NCBI GenBank assembly: GCA_030833445.1
Contig: JAURHD010000010.1
Coordinates: forward strand, 1 to 64,000
DNA: 64,000 nt
Reading direction: 5' to 3'
Source: Cephaloticoccus sp.
GTDB taxonomy: Bacteria; Verrucomicrobiota; Verrucomicrobiia; Opitutales; Opitutaceae
A program made the position numbers and the translations under genes. Below the pieces are notes generated by a model that saw only the letters and a program-made list of their open reading frames with translations, was not told where the DNA came from and did not search any database. Shown here in pieces: positions 1,412-60,676 of this stretch; positions within the stretch are counted from its first letter, which is position 1; each line of letters starts with the position of its first letter.

Positions 1412-2005
1412 CTAGCGCGTTTGCGAGTTTACCTTCACCCAACGCATGCCCGCGGCTTCCGCCGCCTGAATGCCCAATTCGGCATCTTCAAAAACCAGGC
1501 ATTGCGCGGGAGGAACCCCCATTTGCTGGGCGGCCAACAAAAAGGTATCCGGCGCCGGCTTCCCTTGCTGGACGTCATTCGCGGATACCACCACCGCAAA
1601 CAGCGATGCCAATTCCTTGATCTCCAACGTATGCAAAACGACATCCCGGGGACCTCCTGACGCCACACTCACGGGATGGGTCAGCGCCATCTTCCGGGCG
1701 AACTCTACGACCGGCCTAATGAGCGGTGCTGTGGGCAATAACCGGGTGAATTTGTGCTCCTTGGCATCGCGCAAACCCAACGGGTCAAAATCAGTCCCAT
1801 GGTGGCGATTGAAGATATCCGCCACCTGCATGGCTGGCACGCCACCCAAGGAATAGAACAGGTCAATATCAAGATCCCGATCCAGGCCAAACTCACGCAG
1901 GGCATCACGCCACGCTTGGTAATGGAGGGGCATGGTGTCCACCAAGGTCCCGTCCAAATCGAAGATGTAACCCGCAAATTCACCTGCCGGTATGTCCAAT
2001 TGCAT
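1412..2005 (-). CDS. HAD-superfamily hydrolase, beta-phosphoglucomutase-like
   Basis: The 197-residue protein has the HAD subfamily IA layout. Motif I, FDLDGTLVD, carries the nucleophile D16 and the acid D18. A helical cap follows, then motif II in VSVASGGPRD, motif III lysine in QQGKPAPDTFL and motif IV in VFEDAELGIQAA. Family members are phosphatases or phosphomutases acting on small phosphorylated metabolites such as sugar phosphates. The substrate cannot be deduced. Position just upstream of hisC on the same strand raises the possibility of a histidinol-phosphate phosphatase role, but this is only inference from neighbourhood, and a phosphoglycolate- or sugar-phosphate phosphatase is equally possible. 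Confidence 0.85.
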   Translation of the reverse strand: MQLDIPAGEFAGYIFDLDGTLVDTMPLHYQAWRDALREFGLDRDLDIDLFYSLGGVPAMQVADIFNRHHGTDFDPLGLRDAKEHKFTRLLPTAPLIRPVVEFARKMALTHPVSVASGGPRDVVLHTLEIKELASLFAVVVSANDVQQGKPAPDTFLLAAQQMGVPPAQCLVFEDAELGIQAAEAAGMRWVKVNSQTR

Positions 2006-2068
2006 AGAGCGCCCAGCCCACCGCGCAGCCGACTGAGTGGCAATCGCGGAGTTCCGGCTACGATTAGA

Positions 2069-33852: not shown

Positions 33853-34824
33853 ATGGCCGTCGCTTCTCTTTATCCCATATCTGACCACTGTGACGGTTTT
33901 CGCTTTTTCAATCCGCAAAACCACGTCAACCGGACTTGGTTGGATGTCCTGAAATGGCGGCGCACCAGCAAGGGCAAGCCGTGGCCCAAACAGGTTGAAA
34001 TAAAAACCGCTCAGAACCTGCCACCATAGGGCGATGCCCTGCTGGCGTGCACCTGGATTAACCACGCGTCCTTTTTAATGCGGTTTCCGAAAGTCAATGT
34101 GCTGATCGACCCGATCTACAGTGAATGTGCGGGACCTTTTGGCCGTTTGGGTCCGAAACGGGTGCATCCTCCCGGGATACGTTTTGCCGATTTGCCACGC
34201 ATTGATGTAGTGCTGCTCAGTCATGACCATTATGACCACTGTGACTTGCCAACCCTGCGCCGATTGGCCGCTGAGCACTCACCGATCGCGATCACCCCGT
34301 TGGGCAATGGCCAACTATTACGCAGGGCTGGTTTTCCGACCGATAGGATCATCGAGCTGGATTGGTGGCAGTCTTGGGCCCACGCCGAGCTGGACATCAC
34401 CTTGACCCCGGCACGGCACTGGAGCAACCGATTGAGCGGGCCGCGCAACGGCCGTTTATGGGGCGGTTTTTATCTCAACAGCTCAAAACGACGCGTCGCC
34501 TATACCGGGGATACAGGTTACGACTCCGACTATTTCACCGAGGTTCAACGTCGCTTGGGTGCCCCTGATCTCGCACTGATTCCCATCGGCGCATACGAAC
34601 CGCGCTGGTTCATGGCCCCGCAGCACTGCAATCCGGCCGAAGCGGTGCAAATCCACCGCGACCTCAGTGCCGGTAAGAGCGTGGCCATGCACTGGGGCAC
34701 CTTTCAACTCACCGATGAGGGCCGGGAGGACCCGTTGGTCGGTTTGGCTGCAGCCTTGGCCGGGCAAGCGATTCCAAAAAATCAATTTCAAGCTATTGAA
34801 CCGGGAGAGACGCTTAACATCTGA
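33853..34824 (+). pseudogene. MBL-fold metallohydrolase (NAPE-PLD-like) interrupted by an in-frame amber codon
   Basis: The full frame from ATG 33853 to 34824 is about 323 codons, the normal size of NAPE-PLD/UlaG-like metallohydrolases. The N-terminal part has HCDGFRFFNPQNHVN and LDVLKWRRTSKG. TAG at 34027-34029 then interrupts it directly before GDALLACTWINHASFLMRF. The metal motif LLSHDHYDHCDLPTL and later AYTGDTGYDSDY, PIGAYEPRWFM and AMHWGTFQLTD are intact. In the absence of suppression, a product could start at ATG 34078 (248 residues) but would lack the first strand pair. A CAG or TGG to TAG change fits. Family substrates are N-acyl ethanolamine phospholipids or cyclic phosphates. Confidence 0.82.
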
Positions 34825-34987: not shown

Positions 34988-36469
34988 ATGACTATGCGCC
35001 AGATTATCACCCTCGCAGGATGCGCGCTCATATTGGGCGTTGGCGGGGCGCGCGCTGCTGAAGAGGTTAATCTGTGGCCGGCGAGTGTAAGGTGGCCCGG
35101 TGTCACAAATGAGCCGGGAGAAAAATGGCAGGCGGTGGGTCCGCTATTTTTCCGGACCATCGCTCCGGACCAATCCAACTTCTCCGGACTGCGTCCGCTT
35201 TATCTGCACCACACGGACAAACGGCAGACCTACGAGGAGTCCACGTTTCTCTATCCCCTCTTTTCCATCCGGCGTGATCAGAAAGTTTCCCGCTGGACCG
35301 TGTTCAACCTGATCAACCGCACACGACCCCTTGATCCCCAATCACCGGGGGCAGTGCCGCACTCCTTCGATGTCTGGCCATTGTATTTTTCCCGCGATAC
35401 CGGAGCTCCGGAGACCAGCTACCATGCGCTTTTCCCAGTCGCCGGCACCATCAAGTCCCGTTTCGGTTTTGATCGCCTGCAATGGATGGTCTTCCCGCTA
35501 TTCATGCAGACTGAAAAGGCCGGCGTGGTGTCCACCTCGACTCCATGGCCCATTATCAAACGCAGCACGGGCAACGGTCATGAGGGATTCGCAGTCTGGC
35601 CGCTGTTCGGTCACGGGGAGAAACCCGGCCAGTATCGCCAGCAATTCTACCTATGGCCTTTGATTTATAAGAACGAATTCCGCCTGTCCGAACCGGTGCC
35701 AAGCGTGCAAGAGGGCTTCCTGCCGTTTTATACCCGTGAACAACGGGCCGGGGCCATCAGTGAAAATTTTGTTTGGCCGTTCTTTGGCTACACCAAGCAG
35801 CAGACGCCCGTCACCTATAACGAAACACGGTATCTCTGGCCGTTGCTGGTGCAGGGCCGGGGCGAGGAGCGCTACGTGAACCGGTGGGCGCCCATCTATA
35901 CCCACTCAAACCGCAAGGGCATCGATAAGAAGTGGTATTTGTGGCCGCTGTTGCGAACGGAGCAGTGGACCGCGGACGGTCTCGTTCAGAACAAGGATCA
36001 GTTTGTCTGGTTTTTTTATTGGTCCCTCCAGCAGCGCAGCGCTCGCAATCCGCAACTGGCCGCCGCCTACAAAACTCACCTCTGGCCACTGCTCAGTGTA
36101 TGGGATAATGGGGCCGGACGTCGGCAGGCCCAGTTCCCCAGCCCCCTCGCGGTCTTTTTTCCCACCAATGAAAAAGTCCGCCAGCTCTATACTCCGTTGT
36201 TTGCGCTGTATCGCTATGATCAAAAGACGCCCGATGATGTGCGCCACGCGCTGCTCTGGAATGCCATCACCTGGCATCGCAGTCCGGGAAAACGCGAATT
36301 TCACCTTGGGCCTCTCTTGAGCACAGAACGTGGGACCTCGGGTGCCCGCGTAGCCATCGGTAACGGCTTGATCGGCATGAAGCGCGATGCCGATAAACAA
36401 AAATGGCGTCTGTTCCTGTTCGATTTTTCTCGCGGGAAGCACAAAGGTGAGCCGTCGACCACCAAGTGA
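34988..36469 (+). CDS. Exported WPL-repeat protein upstream of mlaEFD
   Basis: The 493-residue protein has a signal peptide (RQIITLAGCALILGVG, cleavage near ARA-AEE). The mature part is a series of degenerate repeats, each with a WP-L/F/I core and aromatic residues. VWPLYF, PWPII, VWPLFG, LWPLIY, VWPFFG, LWPLLV, LWPLLR and LWPLLS recur at 25-60 residue spacing. Each is followed by charged loops and a PFY/PIYT-type strand. Alternating aromatic short strands suggest an outer-membrane or periplasmic beta protein. I do not recognise a family. It ends one base before mlaE on the same strand, so translation is coupled and a role in lipid transport across the envelope is inferred. Confidence 0.75.
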   Translation: MTMRQIITLAGCALILGVGGARAAEEVNLWPASVRWPGVTNEPGEKWQAVGPLFFRTIAPDQSNFSGLRPLYLHHTDKRQTYEESTFLYPLFSIRRDQKVSRWTVFNLINRTRPLDPQSPGAVPHSFDVWPLYFSRDTGAPETSYHALFPVAGTIKSRFGFDRLQWMVFPLFMQTEKAGVVSTSTPWPIIKRSTGNGHEGFAVWPLFGHGEKPGQYRQQFYLWPLIYKNEFRLSEPVPSVQEGFLPFYTREQRAGAISENFVWPFFGYTKQQTPVTYNETRYLWPLLVQGRGEERYVNRWAPIYTHSNRKGIDKKWYLWPLLRTEQWTADGLVQNKDQFVWFFYWSLQQRSARNPQLAAAYKTHLWPLLSVWDNGAGRRQAQFPSPLAVFFPTNEKVRQLYTPLFALYRYDQKTPDDVRHALLWNAITWHRSPGKREFHLGPLLSTERGTSGARVAIGNGLIGMKRDADKQKWRLFLFDFSRGKHKGEPSTTK

Positions 36470-36470
36470 C

Positions 36471-37223
36471 ATGAAACAAATCAACGCCATACTCGAAGGA
36501 TTCGGTAGCACTGTGATACTATTGGTGCGGTCGTGCAGTCACATCGGCACCTTACCCCGGCAGTTTAAACGGTTCGTGGAACAATGTTACCTGATCGGAT
36601 ATACCACGCTCCCCATCGTGGCGATCCTGAGCTTCTTTATCGGCGGTGTGCTGGCACTGCAAAGCGGCTACAGCATGGAGAATTTTGGGGCCAAGGAATT
36701 CATCGGCTCATTGGTGGGCCTGTCGATGGCCCGGGAACTGGGTCCGGTCATGGTCGCGGTGTTGGTATCAGGCCGGGTAGGCTCGGCCATCGCAGCGGAA
36801 CTTGCGTCAATGAAGGTTTACCAGGAGGTCGACGCTTTGCTGACCATGAATATCCCGCCCGAGCGCATCTTGGTTTTGCCCCGGTTGGCGGCGATCACGG
36901 TCATGATGCCGGTTCTGGCGATCATCGCCAATCTCGTGGGTTGGTATGGTGGCGCCTTGGTCGCCCAAAATGTGAGCTTCATTGCTCTGTCCCCAGAAAA
37001 ATATTTCGAAACGCTGCGACGCTATACCGAATTCAGCGATGTCTGGAGCGGGATCGTCAAATCCGAGATCTTCGGTTTCGTGGTTGTATTGGTCTCATGT
37101 AGTATCGGCCTGCGCACCACCGGTGGACCGCGCGAAATCGGCGCTTCCGTCACCAAGGCCGTGGTAACCTCACTTATTCTCATTCTGGTGCTCGACTACT
37201 TCGTCACCAAGGCCCTGCTCTGA
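36471..37223 (+). CDS. mlaE: MlaE-family lipid ABC transporter permease
   Basis: The 250-residue inner-membrane permease has five to six helices. The typical MlaE segments are VAILSFFIGGVLALQSGYSM, LVGLSMARELGPVMVAVLVSGRVGSAIAAELASM and a late IGLRTTGGPREIGASVTKAVV. It forms the membrane core of the Mla complex that moves phospholipids between inner and outer membrane. ATG 36471 follows the preceding stop by one base. The gene is the first of mlaE-mlaF-mlaD, with mlaF beginning one base after its stop. Confidence 0.9.
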   Translation: MKQINAILEGFGSTVILLVRSCSHIGTLPRQFKRFVEQCYLIGYTTLPIVAILSFFIGGVLALQSGYSMENFGAKEFIGSLVGLSMARELGPVMVAVLVSGRVGSAIAAELASMKVYQEVDALLTMNIPPERILVLPRLAAITVMMPVLAIIANLVGWYGGALVAQNVSFIALSPEKYFETLRRYTEFSDVWSGIVKSEIFGFVVVLVSCSIGLRTTGGPREIGASVTKAVVTSLILILVLDYFVTKALL

Positions 37224-37224
37224 C

Positions 37225-38028
37225 ATGACCTCCAGTTCCACTCGCAATCCATTTACCGCCGAAGAGAGTCCGGCCGTCGGAGTCACACTCGAAAACCTGA
37301 GCAAGCAGTTTGGGAAAAACATCGTGCTGAAAGACATCAGCCTGCAGATTGAGCCCGGTGAAATCTTTGTCCTCATGGGTCCCAGCGGGTCCGGGAAGAG
37401 CGTATTGCTCAAACACATTGTCGGACTGGAGGCACCCACGAGTGGACGGGTGATCGTCGATAGTCAGGACGCGGCCGATCCTGAAACCCGGGAAGAAGTA
37501 AAGATGGCCTTGGTCTTCCAAGCCGGGGCACTTTTCAATTCGCTGTCGGTATACGACAATCTCGCCCTTTATCTGCGTGAGCATCGGCTCGGCAATGAGG
37601 CCGCCATCCGGGAGAAAGTGATGCACGCCCTGCAGATACTCTCCCTGGAAAGTACCGGTGGGAAATTCCCTTCTGAATTGTCAGGGGGCATGAGAAAACG
37701 CGTGGCCATCGCCCGGGCCCTGGTCATGGAACCGCAGCTGATGCTTTACGATGAGCCCACCTCGGAACTCGATCCGGTGATGGCGGCGACCATCAGTGAG
37801 ATTATCGCCAGTTTGAAACACGAATATCACGTGACCTCGATTGTCGTATCCCATGACCGCGACCTCGCCCTTAACATCGCTGACCGCATTGGTCTCCTGA
37901 TGGATGGCGAACTCATCACGGTCGCCTCCCCAGCCGAATTGAAAACCAACACTGACCCCCGGGTGATCGATTTTTTAAATCCCAAGATAGACCTGCACCA
38001 ACCGCGTTTTAAGAAATTGGAGACCTAA
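37225..38028 (+). CDS. mlaF: MlaF-family lipid ABC transporter ATP-binding protein
   Basis: The 267-residue ATPase powers the MlaE permease. Walker A is MGPSGSGKSVLLKHI near residue 52. The signature LSGGMRKRVAIARALVMEPQ and Walker B LMLYDEPTSELDPVMA are complete, followed by the VSHDRDLALNIADRI H-loop. The FQAGALFNSLSVYDNL Q-loop is characteristic of MlaF. It starts one base after the mlaE stop and ends three bases before mlaD, so all three subunits are cotranslated. Confidence 0.92.
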   Translation: MTSSSTRNPFTAEESPAVGVTLENLSKQFGKNIVLKDISLQIEPGEIFVLMGPSGSGKSVLLKHIVGLEAPTSGRVIVDSQDAADPETREEVKMALVFQAGALFNSLSVYDNLALYLREHRLGNEAAIREKVMHALQILSLESTGGKFPSELSGGMRKRVAIARALVMEPQLMLYDEPTSELDPVMAATISEIIASLKHEYHVTSIVVSHDRDLALNIADRIGLLMDGELITVASPAELKTNTDPRVIDFLNPKIDLHQPRFKKLET

Positions 38029-38031
38029 ATC

Positions 38032-39024
38032 ATGAACAGCGCCCACTACACCGCCCGCGTCGGACTATTTTTCCTCCTTGGCATCGCCCTCATCTGGGTG
38101 ACCTACGAAACCCTCGGCAACAAATCCAGTCTCAAGAAAAACGGTTACACGCTGATTGCGGGATTCGACAATCTCAAGGAGCTGAAGGCCGGAGACGACA
38201 TCCGCATGGCCGGCGTCCGAATTGGTGCCGTGGAGCTCACCCGACTGGCCGGAAGCCGGGCCGAGGCTGTGTTCCGGATCGATAAGACCGTCAAAATACC
38301 AAGTGACGCCACCGCCACCATCTCTTCGGCCGGTCTGCTTGGCACCAATTACATCGCGGTCGAGTTGGGCAGTCAAAATGTGCCACCCCTTGAGGCTGGG
38401 GCCGAGATCCGCACTCATAACTCAGCCGATCTCAACACCATCATGACTCAACTCGGTGAACTCGGCGGTAAATTGGAAGACGCTTTGGGTTCCATCGGAG
38501 AAGTCTTCAAAGGCGACTCGGACCATCCCGGTTTACTCCAGCGCGTGGATACCTTGCTCACCGAAAACAGTGCCAAGGTGAATCAAGCCATGACCAACCT
38601 CCAGGAGATCACCGACAAAGTGAACCATGGCGACGGCACCTTGGGCAAACTGGTGAATGATCCCCAACTGCATGATGAACTGCTCTCGGCTATTACGGAG
38701 ATCAAGACCGCCGCGGATGATGCCCGCACCTTTATGACCAACGCTCAGACGCTCGTGGACCATGTCAAATCCGGGCAAGGCACGCTCGGAGCGCTGATCT
38801 ACGACGAAAAGGCCGGTGCCGATCTAAAAGCCACCACGGCGAATCTCCGCAGCGTATCCGACAAACTTGCGAAGGGTGAAGGCACGCTCGGTAAACTCAT
38901 CAATGACGACAGTCTCTATTCTGAAGCCCAAAGCACCCTGCAGAAAGCCGATCGCGCCTTGGATGGTCTGGCTGATTCCGGTCCGATCACGGCAGTGGGC
39001 GTAGTCGCCAACGCGTTGTTCTGA
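38032..39024 (+). CDS. mlaD: MlaD/MCE-domain lipid transport protein
   Basis: The 330-residue protein has an N-terminal membrane anchor (VGLFFLLGIALIWVTYETL) and an MCE domain (IAGFDNLKELKAGDDIRMAGV to GLLGTNYIAVELG). MCE rings form the lipid tunnel. After residue 195 it has three copies of a repeat, GDGTLGKLVND, GQGTLGALIYD and GEGTLGKLIND, separated by helical segments. That extension is longer than in the Escherichia coli MlaD (183 residues) and probably forms coiled coils reaching into the periplasm. It is the last gene of the operon before a terminator. Confidence 0.9.
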   Translation: MNSAHYTARVGLFFLLGIALIWVTYETLGNKSSLKKNGYTLIAGFDNLKELKAGDDIRMAGVRIGAVELTRLAGSRAEAVFRIDKTVKIPSDATATISSAGLLGTNYIAVELGSQNVPPLEAGAEIRTHNSADLNTIMTQLGELGGKLEDALGSIGEVFKGDSDHPGLLQRVDTLLTENSAKVNQAMTNLQEITDKVNHGDGTLGKLVNDPQLHDELLSAITEIKTAADDARTFMTNAQTLVDHVKSGQGTLGALIYDEKAGADLKATTANLRSVSDKLAKGEGTLGKLINDDSLYSEAQSTLQKADRALDGLADSGPITAVGVVANALF

Positions 39025-39046: not shown

Positions 39047-39074
39047 AAGCCGGTCTCCATGAAGGGACCGGCTT
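39047..39074. terminator. Rho-independent terminator between mlaD and argG
   Basis: AAGCCGGTC (39047-39055) pairs with GACCGGCTT (39066-39074). On the minus strand the stem is followed by a T-rich run (AATAAAAA on the plus strand), so it mainly ends argG. From the plus side the T-run is short. Confidence 0.82.
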
Positions 39075-49849: not shown

Positions 49850-50797
49850 ATGTCGAAAACCCAACTAGCGCAGCTCAAACAATACACCAAGGTAGTCGCC
49901 GATACCGGCGATTTCGCGAGCATGAAGCAATTTGAGCCTCAGGATGCGACGACCAATCCCAGCCTGATCCTCAAAGCAGCAGGAATGTCAGACTATGCCT
50001 GGTTAATCGACAAAGCCGTGGCGGACGCGGGCACCGGGGCAAAGGTCGGAACCGTAATCGACCGTCTGTTGGTGCTCTTTGGTTTGGAAATTCTTAAAAT
50101 TGTGCCGGGGCGCGTATCAACTGAAGTGGATGCGCGTTTGTCGTTCGACACCTCCGGAACCGTCACCAAGGCCCGCGAGATCATTGATCTATACGAAAAA
50201 GCCGGCATCAGCCGCGACCGGGTGCTGATCAAGATCGCTTCTACCTGGGAAGGCATCAAAGCCGCGGAGGCTTTGGAGAAGGACGGCATCCATTGTAACC
50301 TGACCCTGCTTTTCTCTTTTGCCCAAGCCGTCGCCTGCGCCGAAGCGAAAGTGCAACTGATTTCCCCTTTTGTCGGACGGATCCTCGATTGGTATAAAAA
50401 GAGCACCGGTAAAGACTACTCGGCATCGGAAGACCCCGGGGTGCAATCGGTCACGGAAATTTACACCTATTACAAAAAGTTCGGCCATAAAACCGAAGTC
50501 ATGGGAGCAAGTTTCCGTAACAAGGGTGAAATTCTCGAATTGGCCGGCTGCGATCTCCTGACGATTGCCCCTTCGCTCTTGGGTGAGCTCCAGGCTTCCA
50601 CCGATCCAGTCGATTGCAAACTGGATGCCACCTCGGCAGCTGGAGCAAATCTGCAACGGGCAAGCTTTGATGAGAAGAGTTTCCGCTTTGCGCTGAACGA
50701 AGATGCAATGGCGACTGAAAAAACCGCAGAAGGTATCCGCGCGTTTTCAGCCGATATCGTCAAACTTGAGCAGTTGTTGCAGAAGAAGCTGGGCTGA
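49850..50797 (+). CDS. tal: Transaldolase
   Basis: The 315-residue pentose-phosphate enzyme moves a dihydroxyacetone unit between sugar phosphates. The Schiff-base lysine is K128 in [16 protein letters not shown], and [13 protein letters not shown] and [17 protein letters not shown] are the usual flanking motifs. The length matches the Escherichia coli TalB type. ATG 49850 was preferred over a more upstream start at 49826. Its 3' end overlaps the MOSC gene on the other strand by 38 bp. Confidence 0.94.
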
Positions 50798-51287
50798 GAA
50801 CAGAGCCGATCTTCTTGAGCTCGGTTAAACCGGTTGTGAGCTGCCCATCACGGAGTATTTTGGCGCGCAACCCCCCTCGGCCTTGGAGCCATGTCTCCGC
50901 GCCATCGACCACAGCCTGGTTCATCCAGTAACAGGGTTTGGCTTCACCGGTGCCCTCGAATTCAACGCCCTGGATTTCAAACCGGCACGATTCCAATTGG
51001 GTTAAATCAACGCCGGACAATACCACATTGCGGCGGAATGCCCCGGGCAATAGTCCCGATAAGCCAAAGGCCGCTTTGATTTCGGTATAAGTTTCCCAAG
51101 AGAAAAACGTGATCTGCCCTTTGTAGTCCGGTTTAAAATCGTAGAAGCGATCCCCTTCAATCCCTCTCCCCGCCATACAGTTGATCGTATTGACTTCCAA
51201 GGTGGGTTCCTCCCCGGCAGGCTGACCGTGGTGACCAAAATAGTTATGTCCCGGGGAGACGAAAATTTGACGGATGTGCACTTCCAC
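50760..51287 (-). CDS. MOSC-domain protein
   Basis: The 175-residue protein is a stand-alone MOSC domain. [24 protein letters not shown] and [16 protein letters not shown] are typical, and the catalytic-type cysteine occurs in [20 protein letters not shown] proteins act in molybdenum cofactor sulfuration or in reduction of N-hydroxylated compounds, but single-domain members mostly have unknown targets. The start is uncertain: GTG 51287 begins [13 protein letters not shown], which suits the fold. Its 3' end overlaps the transaldolase stop. Confidence 0.75.
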
Positions 51288-51339
51288 AACCGCCACGTTG
51301 GGCACATTGATTTGGGGACACAAGACCCCGATGGCAGCG

Positions 51340-53223
51340 ATGTCTGATCCGCAAGCCATGATACGCGGTTTTCAGTGGGACCTCGCCCGTCAAGTGGAGC
51401 GATTGGATTGGTTGCTGGCCCAATTGCCTCGTTACGCTGAGTGGGGTTACAACGAGCTCTATCTTCACCTAGAGGATGCCGTGGAATATCCGAGCCTGCC
51501 ACTAGTGGCCCGGAAGGATGCCTACAGTTATCGTCAATTTGAGCAGTTGGTTAAAGCCGCCAGCCGAGTTGGCATCAAGGTGGTGCCCATCGTCAATTTG
51601 CTCGGGCACACTCAATATCTCATCAAAGTGCCCGAACTGCGCGACCTAAACGAACTGCGCCACCCTAACGGCTCAGCACAAGCAGATGGACAGATCTGTC
51701 CTCTTCACCCCCGCACGTTGGAGGTCGCGGAAAAATTATTGCATGACATGGCCCCGTTCTGCACCGCCGGCAAAGTGCACGTGGGACTCGATGAATCCTT
51801 TCACTTGGGCAAGCATCCGACGACCCAGCGGGAGATCAAACGTATCGGTTTACCCGCGCATTTCGCCCGTCATGTGGGGCGTCTGCACACACTGACTCAG
51901 TCCATGAATCTGAAGATGGGAATGTGGGGCGACATGCTCTATTTTCTACCGGCAGCTGTTCCGCTCTTACCCAAGGATGTGACCATCTACGAATGGTATT
52001 ACTATGGGTTCAGGCGGAGACCACGGGTTGAGTTATTCAACTTCGCGGAAAGCCGTTTGGGCCAACAATTACGTGACCGCGGTTTCAAAGTATGGGGATG
52101 TCCGATGAACGGCTCCGCCCGTTATGAACCGCTGCCGCATTTTACGGACCGCTTGCACAACATTCTGTCTTGGTGGCGACATGGACAGCGCATAGGCACC
52201 GAAGGAATGCTGGTTACCTCTTGGGAACCATTCCGCCTGGCGCTGGAGATGACCACGGTGGTGGATGCAGCGGCAGCTTCTCTGTGGCTGAATCCCGGGG
52301 TCACCGATCCACAAGAAATGCTAACTCGGGGTTTCTCTCGGGTGTTTGGATCAAAGACTGCCCGCACTTCGGCCAAGGTGGCGATTGCCTGCGATCGCTA
52401 TCCTTTTAGTGGTTACCCGCTTTGGCAGAGTAACACTCGCTGGGATACGGTTTCACGCCGCACGTCGCTTGCAGTCCACAAAACTGAGGAGCGCTATTTC
52501 GCCAAATTGGCCAAACAAGCCAAAGGTCTCCCCGCTCCGTTGAAAGCGAGCGTGCAATTGCGCCATTATTTTGCCGCCCGGGATCTATTCACTCACACCG
52601 CTGCACAGCACAGCGGCCACCATTCCAGGCACAAAACAGCCGTCAATTTTCCCAATGTAACAGGGTCGTTTTCCAAGGTGTTGAAAACAGGGCAAACTGC
52701 CGCCCGGGAAATGTGGCGATTTACCCGCGATCGACGGGTCAAAGGCGCCAATGAACGCATCCTTAGCATGGACCGACAGAGATTCTCCATGTGGCAGCGT
52801 GGCGAGCCCGTCTTTGGACCACCCTACCAGGTGTGCTATGAGGTCCACAATTTTGAGCCGTGCCTGCAACTGGTGCTGGTGGAGCAGCAAAAATCCGATG
52901 GCGCATGGCAGGTGTTGCAGTCCTGCCACACCATAGAATTCCAAACCAGAGCCGCCCAGCCCAGTGGTGCCGTCATACGCGAACATGCCGCCCCTGTGAT
53001 CTGGGATGGCAATGCCTCAGCCCCGCCGCGATTGCGCATCGCTCTACGTGGGCTTGGACGGGTGAAGCTGCAACGCATCGAGTTGCGCCATGGACATAGC
53101 ATCCTGTTCAAATACCCCCGCAGCATCATTCTGGGGAAAACGGCTCCTAAACAAGGGTTACCCGAACTGCTATGGGGTGATAACGTTGACCAGTGGGCAA
53201 TTCCGTTTCCAGCGAAGGACTGA
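51340..53223 (+). CDS. GH20-like beta-N-acetylhexosaminidase
   Basis: The 627-residue protein opens directly with a GH20-type TIM barrel: FQWDLARQVERLDWLLAQLPRY, YNELYLHLEDAVEYPSL and the acid/base pair Asp-Glu in VHVGLDESFHLG. WGDMLYFLP and WGCPMNGSARYE are substrate-pocket segments. About 220 C-terminal residues form one or more beta-rich domains of unknown type. No signal peptide is visible, so it may work on imported oligosaccharides. ATG 51340 is favoured, but 51331 and 51358 are possible. It is divergent from the MOSC gene and shares a terminator with the TonB receptor gene. Confidence 0.75.
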   Translation: MSDPQAMIRGFQWDLARQVERLDWLLAQLPRYAEWGYNELYLHLEDAVEYPSLPLVARKDAYSYRQFEQLVKAASRVGIKVVPIVNLLGHTQYLIKVPELRDLNELRHPNGSAQADGQICPLHPRTLEVAEKLLHDMAPFCTAGKVHVGLDESFHLGKHPTTQREIKRIGLPAHFARHVGRLHTLTQSMNLKMGMWGDMLYFLPAAVPLLPKDVTIYEWYYYGFRRRPRVELFNFAESRLGQQLRDRGFKVWGCPMNGSARYEPLPHFTDRLHNILSWWRHGQRIGTEGMLVTSWEPFRLALEMTTVVDAAAASLWLNPGVTDPQEMLTRGFSRVFGSKTARTSAKVAIACDRYPFSGYPLWQSNTRWDTVSRRTSLAVHKTEERYFAKLAKQAKGLPAPLKASVQLRHYFAARDLFTHTAAQHSGHHSRHKTAVNFPNVTGSFSKVLKTGQTAAREMWRFTRDRRVKGANERILSMDRQRFSMWQRGEPVFGPPYQVCYEVHNFEPCLQLVLVEQQKSDGAWQVLQSCHTIEFQTRAAQPSGAVIREHAAPVIWDGNASAPPRLRIALRGLGRVKLQRIELRHGHSILFKYPRSIILGKTAPKQGLPELLWGDNVDQWAIPFPAKD

Positions 53224-53252
53224 CCTACGCGTCGGGGAAATTGTCCAACAAA

Positions 53253-53281
53253 AAGGCGGCCGGATTAAATCCGGCCGCCTT
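53253..53281. terminator. Shared terminator of the GH20-like gene and the TonB-receptor gene
   Basis: AAGGCGGCCGGAT (53253-53265) pairs over 13 bp with ATCCGGCCGCCTT (53269-53281) across a three-base loop. The A-run at 53250-53254 provides a T-run for the minus-strand TonB-receptor gene, and it also stops the convergent plus-strand gene. Confidence 0.93.
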
Positions 53282-53310
53282 GTTAAGCGGATACTTTAGC
53301 GGGACTTCGC

Positions 53311-56274
53311 TTAGAAGTCGTAGCCAACACTGAACTGCATGCGACGGGGAGTCTGCCAAGAAGTCGGCAGATTGTAGGTCGCGTTAGGCGTGCCAGCGAG
53401 ACTGATGTTGTAAATCTCAACGCGTTCCGTAACGGCCTGATAGTTCATCAAGTTGAAGATATCGAGCTGCAGGGAGAGCTTCTTCTGCGCCCACTGCGGA
53501 CGGTAGCGAAGGCTGAAGTTGTTCTCGAAGGTCCAATCCATGCGACCAGCCTTACCACGAGGAGTCAGGTAATAGTCCGCTCCATAAGCAGTGCCTACGA
53601 CCGGGTCGTTATACCAACCGAGCTTGTTGAGGCCGCGACCCGAGGTGAGGCGCAGGTTGGTGCCGAGGGTCAGTTCATCGGTCAGTGCATAGGAGCCGAA
53701 GAACTTGAAGGCATGGCGACGGTCGTTGGCCAGATAACCATAAGAGTTAGTCTGGAGAGCCGGGGTATCGAACTGAATCGTGATACCGGCGTCGTCTTGG
53801 TCGTTATCCGACAGAACCCAACCTTCGGTGTTACCGTAGTTTTGTGACCAAGTGTAGGAGAACTGGGCAGACCATTTACCGTCCCAGATCTTTTCAAACA
53901 ACAGCTCGATGGCGGCGTATTTACGGATACCGGGTGAATAGCCCAGCTGCGCAGCGGTCAGGGTGACGGGAACGACACCATTGCCATCCTCGAAATCCCA
54001 AGCCGTCTGCATACCACTACCGGGGTTACCCAAGACATAGTGGAAGTAGCCGGAGAAATCAGCACCTGCGATTCCAAGGGTATTCTGGGCGTATTCGGTC
54101 AAGGCATGGTCGATGATCATGTCGTCCATGGTGGACTTCAACTCACGGTAGGTGCCGCGAACGCCAACCTTGTAGTCATTGCTCAGTGAATGTTCTACAC
54201 CGACGATGATCTCATCCTGATACATTGGCTTGATACCCTTGTCTACGATGGTGTCCTTGTCAGGAATACTGCCATCAGAGTAGAAGGTCGTCGTGCCGAT
54301 TTTGGCACCCTGAACGGGGCTCCCATCAGCATTGATGGACGTCAGCACGTAGTAATCCTGTGTGAAGAGTTCACCACCGGAGAGACGCACATTGGTGTTC
54401 GATGCAACCGGCATGTGGTAACGGCCATAGTTGGCGTAAATCTTGGTCTTCTGGTCGCCGAAAAGGTCGAAAGAAGCACCGAGACGGGGAGCCAACTGGT
54501 TGTCGATCGCAATGAATGAATCGCCTTCCTTATTGAAGTTCTCGAAAGACTCATTACGGAAACCGAGACGAAGCAGCAAACGGTTGTCCATCAGACTCCA
54601 GTTGTCCTCAACGTAATAAGCTTCGGAGGTTACTTGGAAGGAACCCAGAACTTGGTAGTTACGAGCGCGGACAGCTTGGGTCACACCGGCAGGAACCGTG
54701 CCACCCGAGAGGGTGGAGCCGGGGCTGACCGTCACATAACGGTAATAGATACCACCGGAATAGGACGTTTCGTCATCCGAATTATTGTCTTCAGCGTCGT
54801 AACCAGCACGGAATGTATGATCACCCAACAGGCTGAATGTGTAGGTAAGGTCAAGGCGCTTGGACTCGCGGGTGTCAAAACCAGCGGAGACCAGCGAAGT
54901 GGACCCGGAGAGCACTCCAGCGCCACCAGCACGAGCATCGATGACGAGGGGAACCGTGTCCTGATTACTCAGGGTCGAGAGGGTGTTCTCGCTTTTGCCA
55001 AACATGGCCGAAACCGTGAAGTTATCGGTGATGCTACCGATATAACGCGCGATGCGGACATCACCACCAAAGGTGGCGTTGATCGTGGTCAGGTCAGTGT
55101 TGAGATCCTTCTTGGTGGCATAGTCGTAATCTGTATCGCTGTTCACCGTGGTGGACTCATTCTTGATATAGGTGACTTCCAAGGTGTGACCGGCAAATGG
55201 ATTGGCGGTCAACTTGGCCAGATACAACGGGTCATCCAACTTCTGATGGCGGATGCGGGTGCCGGATGAAATGACGTTCTGGGTCTCAATGTTGCGAACG
55301 TTGTAGAGGCCGTAGAAGAACAGCTTGTTCTTAATGATCGGACCGCTCGCATAGACGTTAAGGTCTAGGCTATCATACTCGTCGTCGCCATTGTAGTTCC
55401 AGACGGAACCGGCGGTGCCAGCTTGGTTAGTGTAGAGCCGGTTGGGGCGGTCTTCATAACCAGCATCCGGAATGTAATACACATTAAAACCACCCTTGAA
55501 GGTGTTGGAACCGGTCTTGGTCGTGGCATTGATAACACCACCGAGGGAGCGGCCGAACTCAGCGGAGTAGCCACCGGTCTTGACTTCGAACTGCTCGTAA
55601 GCCTCGAACGGAATGCTCATCGGGTTGGTGCCGGTGCGGAAGTCACTCAAATTGAAACCGTCTACGAAGTAGGCGTTTTCAGCGACAGACGCGCCACCGA
55701 AGGAAGCAAGGTTACCGAAGCCGGGGTCACCAACTACGGTGCCGGGGGCCATCAAAGCGACATCGGTCGTGTTACGAGCTACCGGCAGCGACTTGAGCTG
55801 CACCGCACTGATAACCGTCACAGATTCAGTGCGGCCGAAATCGATCGGGTTGAAAGTCATGCCGCTGACGCTGAATTTTTCCAGCTGCAGAATGGCGTCA
55901 TCACCAAAGCTGACCACGGCAGTGGATGCCAGGCTGACTTCAACAATGGGCTCTTTCTCCTGACCAGTTGCGGTCACCTTGTAGCGACCGGTCGGCACGT
56001 TAGTGATCGTGAAACCACCACTGCTGTTGGCAGTAACGGTGCGGGTGAAACCGTTCTCAAGATTAACGGCAGTGACGGTGCTACCAGCACCGACATCACC
56101 GGTAATTGATCCGGTTACGTTTGATTGGGCATAGCCGGAATTGGTGACCACCAAGGTCGCCAACAGGGCTACGGCCGCGAGAGCGGCAAATCGTTTGGCT
56201 GAGTCATTCAGCAAAACGAGACTATCCAACAGGGCGCGGAAGTTCCACGCCTTCCAGTCGGGAAGTGTGTTCAT
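53311..56274 (-). CDS. TonB-dependent receptor with carboxypeptidase-regulatory-like domain
   Basis: The 987-residue outer-membrane receptor has a long signal region ending near SGYAQ. A CarboxypepD_reg-like beta domain follows (TGDVGAGSTVTAVNLENGF, GGFTITNVPTGRYKVTATG), then a TonB plug (SVTVISAVQLKSLPVARNT, FEAYEQFEVKTGGYSAEF, GGVINATTKTGSNTFKG) and a 22-strand-type barrel ending in QFSVGYDF with the terminal Phe. No SusD partner is adjacent. Receptors of this group import glycans or other large nutrients in Verrucomicrobiota. An inverted repeat upstream may be its operator. The gene is monocistronic with a shared terminator. Confidence 0.88.
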   Translation of the reverse strand: MNTLPDWKAWNFRALLDSLVLLNDSAKRFAALAAVALLATLVVTNSGYAQSNVTGSITGDVGAGSTVTAVNLENGFTRTVTANSSGGFTITNVPTGRYKVTATGQEKEPIVEVSLASTAVVSFGDDAILQLEKFSVSGMTFNPIDFGRTESVTVISAVQLKSLPVARNTTDVALMAPGTVVGDPGFGNLASFGGASVAENAYFVDGFNLSDFRTGTNPMSIPFEAYEQFEVKTGGYSAEFGRSLGGVINATTKTGSNTFKGGFNVYYIPDAGYEDRPNRLYTNQAGTAGSVWNYNGDDEYDSLDLNVYASGPIIKNKLFFYGLYNVRNIETQNVISSGTRIRHQKLDDPLYLAKLTANPFAGHTLEVTYIKNESTTVNSDTDYDYATKKDLNTDLTTINATFGGDVRIARYIGSITDNFTVSAMFGKSENTLSTLSNQDTVPLVIDARAGGAGVLSGSTSLVSAGFDTRESKRLDLTYTFSLLGDHTFRAGYDAEDNNSDDETSYSGGIYYRYVTVSPGSTLSGGTVPAGVTQAVRARNYQVLGSFQVTSEAYYVEDNWSLMDNRLLLRLGFRNESFENFNKEGDSFIAIDNQLAPRLGASFDLFGDQKTKIYANYGRYHMPVASNTNVRLSGGELFTQDYYVLTSINADGSPVQGAKIGTTTFYSDGSIPDKDTIVDKGIKPMYQDEIIVGVEHSLSNDYKVGVRGTYRELKSTMDDMIIDHALTEYAQNTLGIAGADFSGYFHYVLGNPGSGMQTAWDFEDGNGVVPVTLTAAQLGYSPGIRKYAAIELLFEKIWDGKWSAQFSYTWSQNYGNTEGWVLSDNDQDDAGITIQFDTPALQTNSYGYLANDRRHAFKFFGSYALTDELTLGTNLRLTSGRGLNKLGWYNDPVVGTAYGADYYLTPRGKAGRMDWTFENNFSLRYRPQWAQKKLSLQLDIFNLMNYQAVTERVEIYNISLAGTPNATYNLPTSWQTPRRMQFSVGYDF

Positions 56275-56378
56275 AGTTCAGTTGTGTGTGTTGTGTTGTA
56301 AGGCAAGAGAGCGGCCGGAACCGCATGTTCTCTTGTTTATGACAAATGCAACTTCCATGCCGGGAATCAACCAAATTT

Positions 56379-56396
56379 CGTTACGGTTGGGTAACG
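56379..56396. promoter_or_regulatory. Inverted repeat CGTTAC-N6-GTAACG upstream of the TonB-receptor gene
   Basis: The 18-bp element has perfect 6-bp arms around GGTTGG, 105 bp before the receptor start at 56274. Arms of this kind resemble LacI/GalR-type operators. An AT-rich stretch lies just beyond, near 56415-56440 (TATAAATAAATA), and could contain the promoter. The rest of the 204-bp gap shows nothing more. Confidence 0.4.
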
Positions 56397-56478
56397 GTCC
56401 AGAAATCACATGATCATTTATATAAATAAATATACACCAATGTTTTACAACAATGGTGAAAATAGCCAAAAATAATCC

Positions 56479-57618
56479 TTACAAATTGGCCTGCAGGACT
56501 TTCGCCAAAGCCAAAGCCAGATCGGCATTCTCGGCCCTGATGGAGAAGTGACCCATTTTGCGTCCAAGACGGGCTTCTTTCTTTCCGTATAAGTGCAATT
56601 TGGTCGCAGGCTCCTGCAATAATAGCGCCCAGTTCGGAATGACGGGGGAGCCGTCTGATTTCGCGAACCATGCATTTCCCAGAATGTTGGTCATTACTAC
56701 CGGTGCATCCAGCGTCACATCTCCAAGGGGAAGACCGCAGACCGCACGGATATGCTGTTCAAATTGCGACGTGCGGCAGGCATCCAGCGTGTAGTGACCA
56801 GAATTATGAGGCCGTGGGGCCAATTCGTTTACTAGTAATACGCCATCACTGGTCAGGAACAATTCGATGGCCAATAATCCCACCACCCCGATCCTTTCCG
56901 CAATTGCCCGACCAAGTGAATCAGCCTGGGACAGTATCTCAGCCTCTACCCGCGCCGGCACGATGGAAAAATCCAGAATGTGATTGGTATGAATGTTCTC
57001 CGATACGGGGAACGTCTTGGTCTGACCGTTGGCTGATCGCGCCACAACCACCGATAGTTCGCATTGAAAAGTGACGAATTGCTCAATCACCGCCCGTTGT
57101 CCGGAAAATTGCTTCACCGCATCAGCGATACCGGCCGCATTGGTTACCTTGTGCTGGCCCTTCCCATCGTAGCCAAAATCGGCCGTCTTCACCACACACG
57201 GCAGACCTATCCCATGGATTGCAGCCGCCAGATCGCCTTGCTCGTCCACGTTGGCAAAATTGACATGGGGAAATCCGTTTTCGCGCAACCAAGCCTTCTC
57301 CCGGCGCCGGTTTTGGCAAATCTCCAGCACCGACCAATGCGGATACAACTGAGTCAGCCTTTCAATTTCTTGCAGAGGTCCGGCAGGGATATTCTCAAAT
57401 TCATAGGTGATGACGTCACAGCTGCGCGCAAACTCGCTCAAGGCCGCGATATCGGTATAGGGCGCGTTAAACTCGCGATTGGCGACTGCCCCGGCCGGAC
57501 AATCAGCCTGCGGCTCGTAGACATGCACCCGATATCCCATGGTCTGGGCCGCTTGAGCCAACATGCGACCCAATTGGCCGCCACCAAGGATTCCAATTGT
57601 TCCTCCGGGTAGAATCAT
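56479..57618 (-). CDS. purK: N5-carboxyaminoimidazole ribonucleotide synthase
   Basis: The 379-residue ATP-grasp enzyme carboxylates AIR to N5-CAIR in purine synthesis. The opening IGILGGGQLGRMLAQAAQTMGY is the PurK signature. ATP-grasp features include VVKTADFGYDGKGQHKV and the metal loop VNELAPRPHNSGHYT. ATG 57618 fits this opening; a longer frame begins at 57666. It is preceded by purE 60 bp upstream on the same strand, giving the purE-purK pair that carries out the carboxylation step. Confidence 0.93.
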   Translation of the reverse strand: MILPGGTIGILGGGQLGRMLAQAAQTMGYRVHVYEPQADCPAGAVANREFNAPYTDIAALSEFARSCDVITYEFENIPAGPLQEIERLTQLYPHWSVLEICQNRRREKAWLRENGFPHVNFANVDEQGDLAAAIHGIGLPCVVKTADFGYDGKGQHKVTNAAGIADAVKQFSGQRAVIEQFVTFQCELSVVVARSANGQTKTFPVSENIHTNHILDFSIVPARVEAEILSQADSLGRAIAERIGVVGLLAIELFLTSDGVLLVNELAPRPHNSGHYTLDACRTSQFEQHIRAVCGLPLGDVTLDAPVVMTNILGNAWFAKSDGSPVIPNWALLLQEPATKLHLYGKKEARLGRKMGHFSIRAENADLALALAKVLQANL

Positions 57619-57677
57619 AGCTTTCAAGCAGCCAACAAGAGGCACCCGGCTGAACTGGGAAAGCAAAATCCGGCGGA

Positions 57678-58163
57678 TTAAGGCAATCGGGCCTTTAATA
57701 CCTTGCCCGTTTGGGCGGAACGGTGGGTCTCCACCGCCTTCTTTATGGTCCGGTCGCCATGAGCAAGAATCTGGGCGGCAAAGTGGGCGGCGTTGATCGC
57801 CCCGGCTTTGCCGATGGCAAAAGTCGCGACCGGCACCCCACCTGGCATTTGCACAATGGATAACAAAGAATCCATTCCCTTCAAAGCGGCAGACTCCACC
57901 GGCACGCCCAGCACCGGCACGATGGTCATGGATGCGGTCATCCCCGGCAAATGGGCGGCCCCACCCGCCCCGGCTATGATCACTTTGAGTCCGCGCTTTT
58001 CAGCGCTGTTGGCATACGACACCAAAAGTTTCGGCGTGCGATGGGCACTGACCACTCGCTTTTCGAACGGCACCCCAAGTAGCTCCAAGGTCGCCGCCGC
58101 ATGCTGCATGGTCTCCCAATCCGAGGTGCTGCCCATGATAATACCGACCAATGGTTTTGCCAT
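57678..58163 (-). CDS. purE: N5-carboxyaminoimidazole ribonucleotide mutase
   Basis: The 161-residue class I PurE converts N5-CAIR to [31 protein letters not shown] (mobile substrate loop with His) and [14 protein letters not shown] are diagnostic, and the C-terminal [22 protein letters not shown] completes the octameric fold. ATG 58163 is used; ATG 58175 is possible. Its stop is 60 bp before purK, so they likely form an operon. Confidence 0.94.
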
Positions 58164-58215
58164 GACCGGATTCATGGGCACACGGACGCCTCTGTCACCA
58201 CTGAAAAGACAGTTC

Positions 58216-58437
58216 CTATGCGGATTTGCGACGATAGCCCAAGACTCGCGCTGGGATAAATAGCAGGGTCCGGATCAGGGCAAACAAAGCCTCGACCACC
58301 AACCCCAGCATGCGGAAAGGCAGGGCCAGCAACCACACGACCGGCAGCAGCATCGCCGCTAGGATTGCGAGCGGCCAACACAGCACCAAGAGGCAGCACC
58401 AAAGTAGGAATCCTAAGATAATCATCGCGTTTCGCAT
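58216..58437 (-). CDS. Small two-helix membrane protein
   Basis: The 73-residue protein has two hydrophobic helices ([20 protein letters not shown] and [20 protein letters not shown]) and a basic tail GYRRKSA. No family is recognised. Its start lies 5 bp after the stop of the bactofilin-like/RDD gene, so it is probably the last gene of the sigma-factor operon. Confidence 0.6.
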
Positions 58438-58442
58438 TGGAC

Positions 58443-60206
58443 TTACACCAGTGGGGTGCCCTTGGGCGCAATCACCACGACCGTGCCGGCGATTTTATCA
58501 TGCCAGGACTGTCTTTCCTTGTCGAACGCCACCCAGAGAAAGCCGAGACCAGCCACAAACAAGGATAGGAATCCGCCGAGACCCCGCACGATGGCCACGG
58601 TCCAATCCAATTTGCGGTCATCCAGGCGCACAACTTTCAACCCGCATACAATACCGCCGATCGTGCTGCCCTTGAGGGCCCAGAGCACCACGCAGTAGGT
58701 GGCATATAGCAACATGAAGAATGCACCGGATTCCGTTACCGCCGCGAGCACCCCGATAATCACGGCATCCAGCAATGAAGCGGCCAGCCGCAGCCAGAAA
58801 CCAGCCCGGGGCAATGCCGTTACCGGCAGGGTTGGCGGAACCACAGCTGCCGTCGGGGTCGCATTTTCCTCCGATACCGGAACCGGTGTCGACGGAGCAT
58901 TGGCCGCCGCTTGGGCCGCGGCCACCCGCTGTGTTTCCGCTCTTTCAGTCCGCATGGTCAACACCAACGTGTAAACCACTACACCCAGGCCGAGCACTCC
59001 AAGGACCTTCCAGAGGAAAAATCCGAGGAACGGCACGGTGTAGAGGAACAGGATCAGCACGCTGCCCACCAAGGTGGCCACTGCGATGTTGTTCATCGGA
59101 CCCGCTCCGAAATACTTCGTGATCCGACGACCCAACCAGGCATGCATGACCGCCTTGCCGAAGATCGAACCGAATAGCAGGGCTGCGATCACAAATGGCA
59201 GCAACAGGATACCCACTCCGGTAACAATGAGTAACACGATCAAGACCGGCGTGATGAGCACGGTGAGCAGCACCGCCAGCATGGAATAGCCCGGACGTTG
59301 CTCCAAGGTCTCGGCACATTTCTCAAAAGCCCGGGGAAAAAGCAGGGCCAGGAAAACATAAGCAATGAACACGGCGATCGCGATGGTCCATGCCCAGCCC
59401 AGATTTTCCCCAAAGGCCAACGGGCGACCCCACAGCAGACACTTGTGAATCCAGGCTGAGAGCCATGTGAGATCGTGCGCTCCGAGGAAGTTAATCTCTT
59501 GGACATTGCCGTGTATGACCGCACCCGGATCCCGATTCAGGACACCGCCGACCGCCACCACGTCGCCATGGACAATCGCAGTGGGCCCCAAATTGACATT
59601 GCCGAGCACCGCAACCACTTCGCCAAATGATTCACCATTGATGGTGGTGTTGCCCAGAACCGATACGACTTCCCCACCGGATTTGCCGTTAACCGTGGAA
59701 TTACCGAGAATCGATACCACACCGCTTTCGCTCTCACCGTCAACGACCGAGGATCCGAAGATCGAGACCAGCTCACGCACAGTGCTGCCGGCGGGGACGG
59801 TATGATTGCCGAAGGGCATTTCCTCAGCAGGTCCACGGCGACGATGGTGGCCGATTTTTAAACCAACGTCGTCGGTAATTTCGTATTCCTTGTCACCGGT
59901 GGAGACTGATTCGTCGGCATCACCTTCTTCACCGCCCGCCATTTCCGGGTTCTCGTCCGTATCGCTTGCGGCCATAACCACGGTTTCAGTGGGGGCTTCG
60001 TCCAATCGGCGGAGCTCATCTTCGTCTGAGGTTATAGCAGCCGCTGATGTATCGGGTTCCGGAGTGTCTGGCATCGCCGGGGCCTCCGGCGCCGGGGGTG
60101 CGGGTGGCTGAGTGGCTTCTTGCGCGCGGGCCACGACCACAAGGGTGAAGGCGAGGCTCAACGCAATGAGGGCGCTAACGAAAAGATTCTTGGATCGCGT
60201 ATGCAT
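58443..60206 (-). CDS. Membrane protein with bactofilin-like repeats and an RDD domain
   Basis: The 587-residue protein has a signal peptide (LFVSALIALSLAFTLVVVA, cleavage near RAQE) and a Pro/Ala/Glu-rich acidic region to about residue 120. A beta-solenoid of repeats follows, with GVVSILGNSTVNGKS, EVVSVLGNTTINGES and EVVAVLGNVNLG, then VVAVGGVLNRDPGAVIHGNV, the polymer-forming cytoskeletal pattern. Several transmembrane helices (about 255-410) come next, then an Ala/Pro linker and a C-terminal RDD domain (PRAGFWLRLAASLLDAVIIG to FDKERQSWHDKIAGTVVV). The joining of these parts is unusual. It follows the putative anti-sigma gene by 14 bp. Confidence 0.78.
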   Translation of the reverse strand: MHTRSKNLFVSALIALSLAFTLVVVARAQEATQPPAPPAPEAPAMPDTPEPDTSAAAITSDEDELRRLDEAPTETVVMAASDTDENPEMAGGEEGDADESVSTGDKEYEITDDVGLKIGHHRRRGPAEEMPFGNHTVPAGSTVRELVSIFGSSVVDGESESGVVSILGNSTVNGKSGGEVVSVLGNTTINGESFGEVVAVLGNVNLGPTAIVHGDVVAVGGVLNRDPGAVIHGNVQEINFLGAHDLTWLSAWIHKCLLWGRPLAFGENLGWAWTIAIAVFIAYVFLALLFPRAFEKCAETLEQRPGYSMLAVLLTVLITPVLIVLLIVTGVGILLLPFVIAALLFGSIFGKAVMHAWLGRRITKYFGAGPMNNIAVATLVGSVLILFLYTVPFLGFFLWKVLGVLGLGVVVYTLVLTMRTERAETQRVAAAQAAANAPSTPVPVSEENATPTAAVVPPTLPVTALPRAGFWLRLAASLLDAVIIGVLAAVTESGAFFMLLYATYCVVLWALKGSTIGGIVCGLKVVRLDDRKLDWTVAIVRGLGGFLSLFVAGLGFLWVAFDKERQSWHDKIAGTVVVIAPKGTPLV

Positions 60207-60220
60207 GGAATAGGTGGGGT

Positions 60221-60676
60221 TTAACGGTTATTAAAAAATGTGCGGTAAGCGGTGGCCCCAAGTCCGATCAGGGTCGCATACATGAATGCCATGAAGGTGA
60301 GGCCACCGTAGATCCACCAACTGGGGATACTGCGGAAGATCAGGCTGCCAAAGTTCAGGATCCCGTTGGCTCCGGCCTTGAGTTGGCCGAGGAGAGCCAT
60401 TGGTCCGGAGAACAGGGTGGAAGTGGTGGTCTCCGCCCCGGCGCGGATCACCAAGATAATAAGGGTCGCAGCCAATGCGCCACTGAGCACCAGGAACGCA
60501 CCACGTGCCGCCACCGGCCAGTGGGTGAACGATTGATGCCACCACGGCAGTGACTGGCGCGCCGCTATGGCCGCCAGCACCCGGGATTCAAGGGAACGGG
60601 GGGCCGGCCGATCCGGCAGTGACCGCAAGGTCCGGTGAATCAGCTTCTCGAGTTCTTCTGGATTAGGTGAGGACAT
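60221..60676 (-). CDS. Putative anti-sigma factor, membrane protein
   Basis: The 151-residue protein has a cytosolic N-terminus (about 45 residues: LEKLIHRTLRSLPDRPAPRSLESRVLAAIAAR) and two transmembrane helices (ARGAFLVLSGALAATLIILVI and WIYGGLTFMAFMYATLIGL). It starts 5 bp after the ECF sigma gene, the usual place for a cognate anti-sigma factor. A canonical zinc-binding HxxxCxxC motif is absent, so the assignment rests on position and topology. Confidence 0.6.
   Translation of the reverse strand: MSSPNPEELEKLIHRTLRSLPDRPAPRSLESRVLAAIAARQSLPWWHQSFTHWPVAARGAFLVLSGALAATLIILVIRAGAETTTSTLFSGPMALLGQLKAGANGILNFGSLIFRSIPSWWIYGGLTFMAFMYATLIGLGATAYRTFFNNR

Follow-up and report, generated by a model that had tools for sequence, protein, structure and literature searches.

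An unnamed, putatively exported protein encoded beside the MlaEFD lipid pump in much of Verrucomicrobiota as a candidate outer-membrane partner where MlaA and MlaC are mostly missing

Bacterial MlaEFD transporters of the Escherichia coli type operate with an outer-membrane lipoprotein, MlaA, and a periplasmic carrier, MlaC, and a locus which encodes the pump in a genome without these partners raises the question of what serves the outer-membrane end of the lipid transport route. We examined such a locus in a 64,000-nucleotide stretch of Cephaloticoccus sp. (assembly GCA_030833445.1, contig JAURHD010000010.1, positions 1 to 64,000 of the forward strand), referred to here as the window. An initial annotation, made from the sequence alone, described a 493-residue secreted protein with recurrent WP-L/F segments ending one base before mlaE and "fused into" the operon, and proposed that it may replace or extend the outer-membrane side of the lipid path as MlaA and MlaC appeared to be absent. 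The observation was confirmed, with the exception that the protein is encoded by a separate gene and is not fused. The proposed interpretation is supported by the analyses described below, although the placement of the protein on the outer-membrane side is consistent with the data rather than demonstrated by them.

The window encodes four consecutive genes on the plus strand. The first (34988-36469, 493 aa), which we refer to as the WPL protein gene, begins with ATG at 34988 and ends with TGA at 36467-36469, and is separated by a single base (C) from the ATG of mlaE at 36471. The mlaE permease gene (36471-37223, 250 aa) is followed by mlaF, encoding the ATPase (37225-38028, 267 aa), and by a long form of mlaD (38032-39024, 330 aa). 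Pfam searches identified MlaE (PF02405, E 2.2e-74), ABC_tran (PF00005, E 3.1e-34) and the MCE domain of MlaD (PF02470, E 1.6e-16), all above cut-off, which places the three genes in an MlaEFD-type MCE ABC transporter operon. The NCBIfam model TIGR00056 matched MlaE above its cut-off, whereas the NCBIfam equivalog models of MlaF and MlaD scored below theirs, and the ATPase is named MlaF by context. In contrast, the WPL protein matched no Pfam family (at E up to 1) or NCBIfam family, including the PqiC-like family PF03886 of the Mpc/Pqi systems, and a 79-row profile of the family matched no PDB sequence. Among 79 aligned members, only two other Pfam families were detected, each in one member and at E 0.03-0.04, and these weak hits are to unrelated families.

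The repeats which gave the protein its provisional description are real. The sequence contains 10 WP dipeptides against a mean of 1.7 and a maximum of 7 in 10,000 shuffles, while the looser motif [WYFLVI]P[LFIVA] occurs 13 times (shuffle mean 3.9, maximum 14). In 88 distant homologues, the loop prolines P70, P90, P131, P150, P170, P188, P205, P224, P246, P264 and P285 stand at 1.00. The N-terminus (residues 1-23, 34988-35056) resembles a signal peptide, with a hydrophobic stretch and A-R-A before residue 24, and both secretion and the cleavage site are judged by eye from this appearance. About 21 of 98 other homologues carry a lipobox at this position (23 pattern matches, of which those at loci L149 and L215 were judged doubtful by eye).

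To evaluate how widely this protein is distributed, we searched genomes of the phylum. The host genome (97.75% complete) contains one copy. A protein search identified homologues in 34 of 57 genomes (the host and relatives), and a profile search identified homologues in 170 of 387 genomes drawn from the phylum, a few of them weak matches near E 1e-5. Among named genomes 178 relatives were found, of which the best 80 were retained, and all 80 are named as Verrucomicrobiota or groups within it. Of the alignments used, one leaves out L024 (a locus with an internal stop), a second uses 78 of the 80 named loci (L074 and L089 have a stop inside the match range), and a third uses 73 of the 80.

The initial annotation had set two conditions which would count against its reading, and the first of these, that homologues are unlinked to mla in most genomes, does not hold. 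In 80 of 80 named loci mlaE lies downstream on the same strand, with a stop-to-start gap of +1 in 36 and -4 in 35, and mlaF follows in 77 and mlaD in 75, the misses being contig ends. Of the first 30 loci from the other genomes, one of them the window itself, 29 show mlaE and one (L026) does not, and one relative (L028) has an in-frame join of a truncated WPL frame with mlaE. A further set of 30 loci (L115-L144) shows mlaE downstream in 30 of 30. Of 98 additional loci, representing 96 of the 170 genomes from the profile search plus two further genomes (G044 and G048), 81 have mlaE downstream on the same strand within 1.5 kb, 3 are cut by a contig end, and 14 do not, although one of the 14 (L168) has mlaE about 1.49 kb away. 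Excluding ten loci of the window's own order and class, the corresponding values are 74, 3 and 11 of 88, at a median identity of 21.8%. Gap values for these distant loci are offset by the unaligned N-terminus of MlaE and were used only to score loci as linked or unlinked, and re-measured start distances were exactly -4 in 24 of 80. Together with L115-L144, these counts cover 124 of the 170 genomes and leave out 46, among them the weakest matches.

These data bear on the possibility that the WPL protein is simply a neighbor with no functional tie to Mla. In favor of that reading are the 14 of 98 unlinked loci, and the fact that among the named loci the window's other neighbors are nearly as constant (RsmD in 60 and RsmE in 54 of 64), so that only the distant loci make the linkage telling. 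However, mlaE stays next to the gene in 74 of 88 loci at 18-25% identity, where RsmD is found in 0 and RsmE in 1. Furthermore, in two of the unlinked genomes (G048 and G044) the separate mlaE still falls in the WPL-type clade of the MlaE tree, and their MlaD keeps the long form and the hydrophobic tail described below. Membership in the operon is considered very secure and an unrelated neighbor is regarded as a remote possibility.

We next examined the relationship of the WPL protein to the usual pump partners. Neither MlaA (PF04333) nor MlaC (PF05494) was matched in the host genome. In the 57 genomes the same 13 carry MlaA and MlaC, and only one of these (G032) also has the WPL protein, on another contig; with 3% contamination listed for this genome, mixing cannot be excluded. 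Thus 1 genome has both the WPL protein and MlaC, 33 have the WPL protein only, 12 have MlaC only (with MlaA), and 11 have neither (Fisher p 1.9e-5). In the 387 genomes the corresponding values for MlaC are 9, 161, 38 and 179 (p 2.5e-4), and 19 genomes carry both the WPL protein and MlaA (p 3e-25). Of the nine genomes with both the WPL protein and MlaC, one (G395) has an MlaC match below its cut-off and another (G200) scores 47 bits, and both are without MlaA. Eighty-four genomes have none of the three proteins. These p-values treat genomes as independent and ignore shared ancestry. In addition, the MlaE tree places the 16 MlaC-operon MlaE proteins on one side of a fully supported branch, with a warning that long branches meet there, which suggests that lineages in Opitutales exchanged whole operons rather than single parts, so the exclusion need not mean one-for-one replacement. 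The premise of the initial annotation that Mla systems use MlaA and MlaC also requires correction, as systems without them are common. MlaABC are reported to be restricted mostly to Proteobacteria (PMC10665443), although we found MlaC in 47 and MlaA in 152 of the 387 genomes of this phylum.

The MlaD protein differs with the partner present. Lengths estimated from alignment to the window MlaD are 323-332 residues in named WPL operons, 248-407 (median 331) in 75 further WPL operons, and 150-175 (median 156) in fifteen MlaC operons out of 20 loci. The window MlaD is predicted by AlphaFold2, at low confidence (mean pLDDT 64.5), to consist of one TM helix, the MCE domain and a helical extension of about 190 residues, with only helices from 134 to 329. 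It ends in a hydrophobic tail which is conserved in 74 sequences, and 75 of 75 complete MlaD proteins of the further WPL operons end in G followed within a few residues by a final L or F. This ending is found in none of 16 MlaC-operon MlaD proteins, which share a short LISRFAFG-like stretch of their own, nor in the host's second MCE protein. The tail may serve as a contact for a partner, but it may instead serve MlaD's own oligomer.

The second condition named in advance, a predicted soluble enzyme fold, was also not observed. An AlphaFold model of the mature WPL protein, based on 79 sequences (mean pLDDT 93.6, pTM 0.81), consists nearly entirely of short strands, 45 in number with a median length of 6 and a maximum of 8 residues, and no enzyme fold was recognized. 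The turns alternate such that the WP-L/F turns are hydrophobic and line one edge while the others are polar or charged. This pattern repeats in 88 distant homologues, where the WPL loops are 90% hydrophobic and 2% charged and the other loops are 38% charged, with turn positions taken from the window's model. The predicted structure is described as a ribbon of about 470 residues with one hydrophobic and one charged edge, a description which rests on the predicted strands and turns and not on overall shape or curvature. Foldseek searches against PDB and BFVD listed no match with TM above 0.30 (up to 0.18 by query and 0.30 by target length). VIA-align gave partial matches of the C-terminal half of the model to the TCP10 domain of CPAP (Z 12.7), MORN1 (Z 11.2), OspA (Z 9.6) and junctophilin (Z 8.9), which are single-layer strand meanders, at 3-9% identity and rmsd of about 5-9 A. 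No family in this list covers the whole chain well, although absence from the list excludes nothing, and no MORN- or TCP10-like Pfam family was detected in 79 members at E up to 0.1. MORN1 is reported to bind single phospholipids but not membranes (PMC7725318).

An integral outer-membrane beta-barrel or porin replacing OmpC-MlaA could be envisaged from the nearly all-strand prediction and from matches to LptD, VDAC, porins and ushers (Z 5-7, rmsd 4.5 to 28 A). However, strands of outer-membrane barrels require about 9 or more residues to cross the membrane, none of the 45 strands is this long, and the window protein ends in STTK without an aromatic C-terminal residue. We rejected a transmembrane barrel on strand length and consider this reading very unlikely. 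A second alternative is that the ribbon itself is the lipid path, a hydrophobic-edged ladder along which lipids slide between the membranes, beside or instead of the MlaD needle. At roughly 4.8 A per strand, 45 strands would reach about 215 A if they formed one continuous sheet, one edge is hydrophobic throughout, also in the 88 distant homologues, and the ninth-ranked structural match is the lipid belt of ApoB100 (Z 9.2). Against this, MlaD in these operons is already long enough to be a needle and no lipid groove was shown, and we regard this alternative as possible but unlikely.

The lipobox distribution and the gene spacing are relevant to a third alternative, in which the WPL protein is a periplasmic subunit on the inner-membrane side that binds the MlaD ring or MlaE and acts in assembly, gating or substrate loading. 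The tight spacing to mlaE specifically, with a gap of +1 or -4 in 71 of 80 named loci, favors this view. None of the lipobox sequences has Asp after the Cys, which in E. coli points away from inner-membrane retention, and the exclusion with MlaA and MlaC points to the outer side, such that this reading is also considered unlikely. Of the 21 lipobox proteins, 15 are linked to mlaE and six come from unlinked loci, which are only 14 of the 98, so the lipid anchor may belong in part to a different use.

Taken together, the explanation we favor, with moderate confidence, is that the WPL protein is a fourth, dedicated component of a three-gene MlaEFD lipid transporter lacking MlaA and MlaC. The analysis establishes that the gene lies directly upstream of mlaE across the phylum, that it goes with long MlaD, and that it mostly occurs where MlaA and MlaC do not, while the ribbon of short strands is a structure prediction. 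The remainder of the model, including export, location, contact with MlaD and lipid handling, is inferred. In this view the protein would be exported to the periplasm, and lipid-anchored in some lineages, and would sit at the inner face of the outer membrane with its hydrophobic edge against lipid. There it would receive the tip of the hexameric MlaD needle, the helices of which end in the conserved hydrophobic tail, so that lipid passes between inner and outer membrane without the MlaC shuttle. A bolder and more tentative possibility, which we consider less likely than not, is that it represents a previously undescribed class of lipid-transfer protein, a single-layer strand ribbon with one continuous hydrophobic edge, which alone links the MlaD needle to the outer membrane and carries lipid. 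This would define a further architecture of Mla transport in much of Verrucomicrobiota, besides MlaA-MlaC shuttles, barrel-tipped MlaD and PqiC-like caps. No paper describing the protein was found among the top-ranked results of searches of the open-licence PMC literature, and an essential-gene study of Verrucomicrobium (PMC12283558) contained none of the Mla terms sought.

Comparison with described systems places the locus in context. The E. coli system (MlaFEDB-MlaC-MlaA) shares MlaE, an MlaF-like ATPase and a single-MCE MlaD with this operon, but neither MlaA nor MlaC was found in the host genome, and the MlaD is about twice as long as in MlaC operons of relatives. The Veillonella-type system likewise has MlaEFD without MlaA and MlaC and with an elongated MlaD, which there carries a beta-barrel (PMC10665443). 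No barrel is seen in the low-confidence model of the window MlaD, and the same study reports the barrel absent from MlaD of the PVC group and raises as yet unidentified proteins, there for barrel folding, as one possibility for barrel-less MlaD. This leaves open how lipids reach or leave the outer membrane in the PVC group, and a conserved, operon-encoded candidate for the missing outer part, which fills the gap on genomic grounds, makes the question directly testable. The nearest precedent is the Mpc system of Brucella (MpcEFD plus MpcA), which combines an MlaE-MlaF-long MlaD transporter with one extra outer-side partner in the operon and no MlaC, and in which the PqiC-like lipoprotein MpcA is proposed to cap the needle protein MpcD (PMC12436622), the job which the WPL protein would do here. 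Some WPL homologues also carry a lipobox, but MpcA is PqiC-like and encoded last, whereas the WPL protein is encoded first, has no Pfam match and is predicted as a strand ribbon. The host has a separate Mpc-like locus (L265), which encodes an MlaE of 418 aa, an ATPase, an MCE protein of 332 aa and a PF03886 lipoprotein.

To evaluate the gene neighborhood in which the WPL-repeat protein is encoded, we examined the genes flanking the WPL gene in the window and in the named loci. An MBL-fold hydrolase (PF12706) is encoded just upstream of the WPL gene at window positions 34078-34824 and was found upstream in 25 of 64 named loci, while RsmD (60 of 64) and RsmE (54 of 64) are steadier neighbors. 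At locus L172, from genome G044, the WPL gene is kept beside genes that look like RsmD and RsmE, as judged by eye, although mlaE is located elsewhere in that genome, so the position looks ancestral. At the other end of the gene set, a perfect 9-base inverted repeat occupies window positions 39047-39074, between mlaD and the opposing argG gene, and has a terminator-like appearance by eye.

The relationship between the WPL and mlaE reading frames takes a different form in one relative, locus L028 (positions 1501-3495; also L266, genome G018), where the WPL frame is cut short by about 50 residues and runs in frame into mlaE as one open frame of 865 amino acids. As the N-terminal helix of MlaE lies in the cytoplasmic leaflet (PMC7790496), an exported fusion of the two proteins is implausible, and mlaE keeps its own ATG in this frame. 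Long open frames were also associated with MlaA matches among the phylum genomes of five of the families in our set (f35, f40, f51, f53 and f60). Many of these matches lie in stop-to-stop open frames of about 600-880 residues, far longer than MlaA, which may mean that MlaA is joined to a larger protein in these genomes.

The host genome also contains a second MCE locus (L265, contig C7 of the host assembly, positions 50000-60500), which comprises an MlaE of 418 amino acids, an ATPase, an MCE protein of 332 amino acids and a PF03886 lipoprotein, and is Mpc/Pqi-like.
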